Of a stretch of DNA of 64,000 nucleotides, positions 7,071 through 11,268 are shown one piece after another. Position 1 is the stretch's first letter. Each line of letters begins with the position of its first letter. The translations under genes and the position numbers were made by a program. This DNA comes from Thiohalospira halophila DSM 15071 (GTDB lineage Bacteria; Pseudomonadota; Gammaproteobacteria; Thiohalospirales; Thiohalospiraceae), in assembly GCF_900112605.1 (NCBI RefSeq), contig NZ_FOMJ01000001.1, forward strand, positions 396,577-460,576, in the 5' to 3' direction. Under the pieces are notes generated by a model. It ran no database searches, was not told the origin of the DNA, and saw only the letters and a list, made by a program, of their open reading frames with translations.

Positions 7071-8429
<1,359 letters not shown>

Positions 8430-8540: not shown

Positions 8541-8556
8541 TGGCACTGCGTTTGCT
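8541..8556 (+). promoter_or_regulatory. Sigma-54 (-24/-12) promoter for the sulfide-oxidation genes
   Basis: TGGCAC at 8541-8546, five bases, then TTTGCT at 8551-8556: the GG and GC doublets sit exactly 12 bases apart, as sigma-54 needs. Start of transcription would be near 8567, with an AGGAGG ribosome site at 8577-8582 before ATG 8587. Upstream, TGTCA (8451), TGACA (8484) and TGACA (8521) and a CAAGG/CCTTG inverted repeat (8463-8481) are possible activator sites, but I cannot assign one. Confidence 0.85.
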
Positions 8557-8586
8557 TGCGTAGTAGCCAAAGCGGCAGGAGGCTCC

Positions 8587-9273
8587 ATGATCTTCCGTCA
8601 GTGGCTGGACAGCGACAACGAGGGCGAACGTTGCGGCTATCTGCTGGCCGACCCGGTGACCCGGGCGGCCGCGGTGATCGATGCCCATGAGGCCATTGCC
8701 GAACGGTGCCTGGACGAGATCGAGCGGCTGGGGCTGGAACTCCACTACGCCTTCGAGACTCGCCTGCACATCGCTCATCGATCCGCGGCGGCCTGGATCC
8801 GGCGCGAGACCGGCGCCCTGGTAGTGGCCCACGAGGCCACCGGCATCGCCTGCGCCGATCACCATGCCGAGGAGGGCGATGGCTTCCATCTCGGAGAGGA
8901 GACCCTGACCTTCCTCCACCTGTCCGGGCTCTGCCCCGGTGCCAGTGCGCTGCTCTGGGGCGACCGCCTCTTCACCGGGGATAGCCTCTGGCCGGGCGGT
9001 ACCGGGCCCATGGGCCCCGGGGGTGACCTGCGCACGCTGCGCTCGAACATCGAGGATCGGCTGTTCCGGTTCGCCGACGAGACGCTGGTCTTCCCCGGCG
9101 CCTGCCCGGACGGCCGGCGAGTCACCACCATCGGGGAGGAGCGAGCCGGGGCCGGCGAAGCGGACTGGCCCTGGAAGAGCCGCCGGGGCACCGATAACCA
9201 GGGGCTACGGCCCGACATCGCCGCCTTCAACCGGGAATGCAGTCAGCGGCCCCACGCCGGGCCCCCTGCCTGA
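8587..9273 (+). CDS. ETHE1/persulfide-dioxygenase-like MBL-fold protein lacking the metal site
   Basis: 228 residues. The N-terminus MIFRQWLDS, then YLLADPVTRAAAVID, and later LFTGDSLW and GRRVTTIGEER follow the ETHE1/persulfide dioxygenase family. That enzyme uses a mononuclear iron held by two His and one Asp to oxidise glutathione persulfide to sulfite. Here the THxHADH motif reads TRLHIAH (first iron His replaced by Arg59), HTPG reads LCPG (second iron His replaced by Leu115), and the late PAHDY reads PGACP (His replaced by Ala162); only Asp132 remains. Cys116 and Cys163 lie next to the lost His positions. Classical dioxygenase activity is unlikely; a persulfide-binding or carrier role is speculation. 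First gene after the sigma-54 promoter. Confidence 0.85.
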   Translation: MIFRQWLDSDNEGERCGYLLADPVTRAAAVIDAHEAIAERCLDEIERLGLELHYAFETRLHIAHRSAAAWIRRETGALVVAHEATGIACADHHAEEGDGFHLGEETLTFLHLSGLCPGASALLWGDRLFTGDSLWPGGTGPMGPGGDLRTLRSNIEDRLFRFADETLVFPGACPDGRRVTTIGEERAGAGEADWPWKSRRGTDNQGLRPDIAAFNRECSQRPHAGPPA

Positions 9274-9318: not shown

Positions 9319-9894
9319 ATGAAACGCACCATCCTGACCCTTACCTCCCTGGCCCTGGCGGGTACCGCCGCGGCGGCCAGCCTGGGCGAAAAGGTCGACC
9401 AGAACGTGGATGACAGCCGTGCCACCATCAAGCAGTTCGCCACCTCGCTGCAGGGCGAACTCAAGGCGGCCATGCAGGAGGGCGGCCCGACGCAGGGCAT
9501 CAGCGTCTGCAACGAGGCCGCCCCCCGCATCGCCGCCGAGGCCTCGGAGTCCTACGGTGGCGATGTGAGCCGTACCAGCCTCAAGGTCCGCAATCCCGAC
9601 AATGCGCCGGACGGCTGGGAGCGCGAGGTCCTCCAGCGCTTCGATCGCCTTGCGGAGCGGGGTGCCGACCCCAAGAAGCTGGACCATTTCGAGGTCCATC
9701 GCACCGAGGACGGTGGCCGCGAATTCCGCTACATGAAGGCCATCCCCACCGGCGAGGTCTGCCTGACCTGTCACGGGGAGAATATCCCGGCATCGGTTCA
9801 GGAAACCATCGATGACCACTATCCTGAGGATGAGGCCCGGGGCTTCGAGAAGGGTGACATCCGGGGCGCCTTTACCCTGACCCGGCCGCTCTAG
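9319..9894 (+). CDS. Periplasmic c-type haem protein, Tll0287-like (DUF3365)
   Basis: 191 residues with a cleavable signal peptide (cut after TAAAA, about residue 20). One haem-attachment motif CLTCH at 148-152 sits in a conserved region of the DUF3365/Tll0287 type, a PAS-like fold often found as a sensor or redox domain. A further Cys64 in ISVCNEAAP is typical of the family. It stands between the ETHE1-like gene (45 bases) and sqr (96 bases) on the same strand, so it probably belongs to the FisR regulon. The role, whether electron acceptor or haem-based sulfide/redox sensor, is not known. Confidence 0.85.
   Translation: MKRTILTLTSLALAGTAAAASLGEKVDQNVDDSRATIKQFATSLQGELKAAMQEGGPTQGISVCNEAAPRIAAEASESYGGDVSRTSLKVRNPDNAPDGWEREVLQRFDRLAERGADPKKLDHFEVHRTEDGGREFRYMKAIPTGEVCLTCHGENIPASVQETIDDHYPEDEARGFEKGDIRGAFTLTRPL

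Positions 9895-11268
<1,374 letters not shown>

Follow-up and report, generated by a model that had tools for sequence, protein, structure and literature searches.

The question raised by this locus was what a protein resembling persulfide dioxygenase (PDO), but with a dismantled iron site, does as the first product of a sulfide operon. Its gene was found at positions 8587 to 9273 (+ strand, 228 aa, ATG start) of the window, i.e. the whole 64 kb stretch of DNA that was analysed. A ribosome-binding site, GGAGG, was read directly upstream of the ATG at 8578 to 8582 (+). A strict sigma-54 -24/-12 promoter (TGGCAC-N5-TTGCT; TGGCACTGCGTTTGCT) at 8541 to 8556 (+) starts 46 bp 5' of the ATG and is the only strict site in the window, with 0.03 expected. 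The gene is divergent from a gene at 7071 to 8429 (- strand) for a FisR-type sigma-54 activator with PAS, sigma-54 AAA+ and Fis HTH domains. The three sensor cysteines of this FisR are arranged as HC-x10-C-x6-C, and their spacing (11, 7) equals that of C53, C64 and C71 of Cupriavidus FisR, of which we take C71 to be the third sensor cysteine. A Tll0287-like heme protein with a CxxCH motif is encoded at 9319 to 9894 (+; Pfam PF11845, E 1.6e-27) and a sulfide:quinone oxidoreductase (SQR) at 9991 to 11268 (+; 3sz0, E 1.9e-191; 3kpk, about 1e-191), giving the order fisR<>pseudo-PDO-Tll0287-sqr. The sequence-only reading had placed the gene first behind a sigma-54 promoter, next to FisR and upstream of sqr; the promoter, the FisR domains and the SQR match to 3sz0 all confirmed this, while the Tll0287-type gene between pseudo-PDO and sqr had gone unmentioned. 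In Cupriavidus FisR a polysulfide link joins C53 and C64 (PMC9495516), and FisR activates sigma-54 transcription of sulfide-oxidation genes on sulfane sulfur (PMC9495516; PMC7315123).

The ETHE1-like identity proposed earlier held in phmmer comparisons, in which the window protein matched 9rhq (E 1.6e-31), Myxococcus xanthus ETHE1 (4ysb, E 4e-25) and human ETHE1 (4chl, E 4e-14). No Pfam family was matched, and all NCBIfam matches were far below the curated cut-off. The fold, for which modelling on ETHE1 had been suggested, was predicted with AlphaFold2 (pLDDT 87.8, pTM 0.85), and the top PDB folds for the model were all persulfide dioxygenases of the PDO/ETHE1 type. Fold and length are common to the window protein and the type I PDO/ETHE1 proteins (4chl, 4ysb, 8zbd and AcPDO of Acidithiobacillus caldus), as are the motifs MIFRQ at the N-terminus, DRLFTGD and GRRVTTI(G)EER. 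A profile and fold match was also obtained with mt-SAF20 (6sg9, 9hny), which has the MBL fold and belongs to the trypanosome mitoribosomal small-subunit assemblosome. mt-SAF20 is part of a large complex, in a setting unrelated to that of the window protein; this match is a lead only.

To describe the active site, residues were numbered after AcPDO, with the window residue taken from an alignment to an Acidithiobacillus PDO. Two of the three iron ligands are lost (H57 to R59, H113 to L115), and D130 is kept as D132, in agreement with the sequence-only reading. The second-sphere residues D61 and H171 are replaced by A63 and A172, and the GSH-site residues R139 and D141 by P141 and G143. H59 (H61), H62 (H64) and C87 (C89) are kept, and the PDO motif T-H-x-H-A-D-H reads T-R-L-H-I-A-H. 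The loss of a late conserved histidine to alanine had been recognised correctly but numbered wrongly: the residue is Ala172, residues 162 and 163 being Phe and Ala. Similarly, Cys116 does stand beside a lost ligand position, but the second cysteine, given as Cys163, is Cys173.

All 40 intact PDOs examined have the same residue at each of the six changed positions (H57, D61, H113, R139, D141 and H171), and chance is therefore no explanation for the substitutions in the window protein. The AcPDO single variants H57G and H113G bound no iron and were inactive, and the H171A, R139A and D141A variants were inactive as well; in D130H both iron and activity were low, and D130 variants showed 0.5 to 2% activity (PMC6060420). 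Because AcPDO variants at the same positions are inactive, the window protein is, judged by its residues, very unlikely to act as a dioxygenase. Some metal binding is possible, since H61, H64 and D132 remain. Binding of GSSH is not assured, because the equivalents of R139 and D141 in the GSH site are lost too. Two intact PDO paralogues are present elsewhere in the same genome; simple ORF picking in their surroundings gave no clear sulfur operon.

Most proteins from a class-wide search with the window protein were intact PDOs; the few that were altered became evident from their motifs and fisR neighbours. No relative was obtained from a single-sequence pattern scan of genome contigs or from the viral contigs searched, the order of G354 (FisR nearest to L205/L267) yielded intact PDOs only, and no homologue above 43% identity to the window protein was found. 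The arrangement closest to that of the window, fisR<>PDO-like-Tll0287, occurs in a Thiogranum MAG (L205:2917-3597) and in Gammaproteobacteria HyVt-519 (L267:7001-7678). Both loci share with the window the gene order, the sigma-54 site and the loss of D61 (here Ser) and H171 (here Arg). In contrast to the window protein, their products keep H57 and H113, have His at position D130 (TGHTLL) and possess Cys118 and a C87/C224 pair; a three-His site as in cysteine dioxygenase is possible from these residues. Besides that of the window, a second altered PDO-like gene was found via fisR neighbours in genome G037, where it is the first gene of an operon that also contains cydAB, globin, rhodanese and sqr genes (names other than sqr from reading the proteins, that of cydAB also from similarity). 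A search from this gene revealed altered homologues throughout the Acidithiobacillaceae. In Acidithiobacillus the order is fisR<>gene-cydA-cydB, and a paralogous group precedes cyoAB.

Several further observations were made on these relatives. The second altered paralogue lies directly 5' of cyoAB on A. caldus plasmid pACA1.1 (L187:3858-4538) and at L175, L177, L179, L184, L198-L200 and L202; the annotation of the pACA1.1 copy (WP_169737334.1) gives a hypothetical protein and places its start further downstream, and no fisR lies beside this copy. A third altered subgroup, from A. ferrivorans and a MAG (L176:6019-6717, L194, L195), keeps C-x-H-x-D-H and has no fisR nearby; at L176 an apparent LysR-type regulator gene adjoins the altered gene. 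The protein of A. sulfuriphilus (L174:6549-7268, equal to L188:7001-7720) is transitional, with the motif HMHEGH, H113 kept (three His), D130 changed to Glu and H171 to Arg. An apparent His-to-Phe change in L014 was discarded as an alignment artefact, the motif being TPGHT.

An unrooted tree of 23 altered rows and 40 intact PDOs was calculated after removal of the active-site columns. The altered rows formed one side of a branch with 100/98 support against the intact PDOs, and the window protein grouped with L205 and L267 at 95/90; altered and intact rows had separated in the same way in a quickly built tree from the full set of columns. The window protein is the only one of the 23 altered rows with Asp at the D130 position, and the intermediates with D130E and D130H record the path of iron-site loss. 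In close pairs of altered relatives dN/dS was 0.08 to 0.31 (0.19 for L205/L267), which means that purifying selection acts on these relatives. Long branches were seen for the window and G037 rows. The long branch of the window protein and the two intact paralogues would fit a decaying, functionless PDO duplicate. Against this stand the intact ORF, the good ribosome-binding site, the only strict sigma-54 site of the window and a codon-position GC content (0.73/0.54/0.85) typical for the genes of the window. Decay was rejected as hardly credible on account of the conserved altered clade, the low dN/dS one step away in L205/L267 and the shared gene order. The sequence-only reading had expected a decaying copy if no conserved family shared the loss of the iron site; such a family was found in the altered clade beside fisR.

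One apparent member of this family has been purified. According to Wu et al. 2017, A. caldus A5904_1112 (OAN03376.1) had no SDO activity at pH 3 to 10, retains only two metal residues and is not near sulfur genes (PMC5584763). The L183 protein, a member of the altered clade, has 243 aa, a mass of 27,087 Da and 34.8% identity to an intact PDO, and it keeps H57 and H62 only. Its gene adjoins fisR and cydAB, and the plasmid of A. caldus belongs to the same genome. Judging by length, mass, identity and motif, but with no accession match, we infer that L183 is A5904_1112, although its computed pI is 8.3 and the one reported is 7.09. A5904_1112 is like the window protein in being PDO-like with most metal residues gone, and its apparent match lies next to fisR. 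It differs in its 243 aa; the L183 gene precedes cydAB, and the window protein, unlike L183, keeps the equivalents of H59, H62 and D130. The published data speak against a GSSH dioxygenase in the case of one apparent family member. Neither the FisR/cydAB setting of A5904_1112, nor a link to FisR/σ54, nor a wider altered family was mentioned in the passages of Wu et al. 2017 and of the other papers examined.

The cysteines of the window protein had been suggested as persulfide-binding residues. Cys116 and Cys173 each follow a lost histidine (positions H113 and H171) by one residue. In the alignment of altered and intact rows, both were private to the window protein, and they were therefore rejected as conserved persulfide cysteines of the family. 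The near-invariant new cysteine is instead that at window position 118, present in 21 of 23 altered rows and in 0 of 40 intact PDOs, where the window protein has Gly and its Cys116 stands two residues earlier. With respect to the C87/C224 pair, C89 of the window protein aligns, and C218 aligns with C224 in one alignment but not in another; most Acidithiobacillus members of the altered clade are without the pair. No cysteine is conserved across the whole clade. These data also bear on the idea that the protein is a new enzyme whose metal site has been rebuilt, for example from H61, H64 and D132 with Cys116 and/or Cys173. The three kept residues, the position of the two cysteines and the possible three-His site of L205/L267 would suit such an enzyme. 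Nevertheless, we give it little probability, as Cys116 and Cys173 are private, a plausible set of ligands is missing in most clade members, the AcPDO D130 variants performed poorly and A5904_1112 was inactive in the SDO assay.

The neighbourhoods of altered and intact genes were compared. A divergent fisR adjoined 11 of 16 altered loci versus 0 of 52 intact ones on the contigs compared; the rows are related to each other, and the p-value of this contrast should accordingly be read with caution. Outside these 52 loci, at L129:3750-4304, a fisR lies close to and divergent from an intact PDO gene, with a distant SQR-like match behind the latter; this order is the canonical arrangement that the window gene replaces. 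A -24/-12 site matching 10 or more of the 12 consensus positions starts 46 to 69 bp 5' of the window gene and of every one of the 14 distinct fisR-linked altered relatives tested (15 loci, L181 and L201 being one). The cyoAB-linked altered genes had weaker matches, except L177. The earlier question whether such homologues always sit beside sqr and fisR was answered in the negative: most members do adjoin fisR, but the genes behind them are cydAB or cyoAB, not sqr, and some are without an adjacent fisR. At L117, L118 and L120 (genomes G245, G251 and G216) fisR is divergent from a Tll0287-like gene and sqr, without a PDO-like gene between, and Tll0287 would seem to belong regularly to FisR-SQR loci. 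The cydA homologue of the window's own genome is more distant (36%) and lies apart from the pseudo-PDO operon (L287, L288; G000:C9:72433-73746).

Two other roles have to be weighed against these gene orders. The protein could be an assembly, protection or tuning factor that acts on the downstream quinone enzymes (SQR, CydAB, CyoAB) by protein contact and not through persulfide. Quinone-linked respiration is the element common to all these contexts, and the Acidithiobacillus gene is directly 5' of cydA or cyoA, on pACA1.1 even without an adjacent fisR. However, many sqr operons have no pseudo-PDO gene, the link to FisR suggests a sulfide-specific role, and the contact is a proposal; we regard this role as unlikely. 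Alternatively, a dead PDO that binds persulfide or FisR itself could tune the activator as a feedback partner. Although the fisR<>pseudo-PDO pair is constant while the downstream genes vary, the cyoAB-linked paralogues have no adjacent fisR and many FisR loci, such as those in G245, G251 and G216, have no such gene, which makes feedback on FisR quite improbable.

We are confident that the window gene encodes a PDO pseudoenzyme in a FisR operon. Since the altered genes are usually first in SQR or quinol oxidase operons, a persulfide-binding partner of quinone-linked sulfide respiration is favoured, and on balance we lean towards the reading as a whole, namely a FisR/σ54-induced PDO pseudoenzyme serving as such a non-catalytic partner. 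FisR/sigma-54 control is common to the window operon and the PDO/SQR operon of Acinetobacter baumannii, in which sulfide increases cydAB as well (PMC7315123). In the window, FisR would sense sulfide or polysulfide and turn on sigma-54 transcription of the operon, whose first product would be the pseudo-PDO, together with the heme protein and SQR (in relatives the quinol oxidases CydAB or CyoAB). To judge from the homologue literature, the pseudo-PDO without its iron site would not oxidise GSSH. Its emptied, cysteine-lined pocket would most likely still bind a low-molecular or protein persulfide, and the protein might then serve as a sulfane-sulfur buffer or adaptor for quinone-linked sulfide oxidation. 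Sulfite would be formed by the intact PDO paralogues that the genome has at other sites. The specific role as a persulfide adaptor is offered tentatively and may well prove wrong. That the whole FisR-induced pseudo-PDO family forms a non-enzymatic subunit or adaptor dedicated to handling persulfide in sulfide-resistant quinone respiration (SQR, bd and bo3 oxidases), with some sites perhaps rebuilt (three-His or Cys/His/Asp), is a more speculative and rather doubtful extension.

If true, this would be an adaptor role for the PDO fold, of which no description was found in the portions of the literature examined. FisR/σ54 sulfide operons can begin with a PDO gene whose product has in all likelihood ceased to oxidise persulfide, and this gene travels with those for quinol oxidases and SQR. 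Sulfide sensing would thereby be linked to a non-catalytic sulfur protein, and a single odd gene becomes a testable family. Counts of "PDO/SDO" genes in sulfur oxidisers include inactive paralogues, especially in Acidithiobacillus, which is used in bioleaching.
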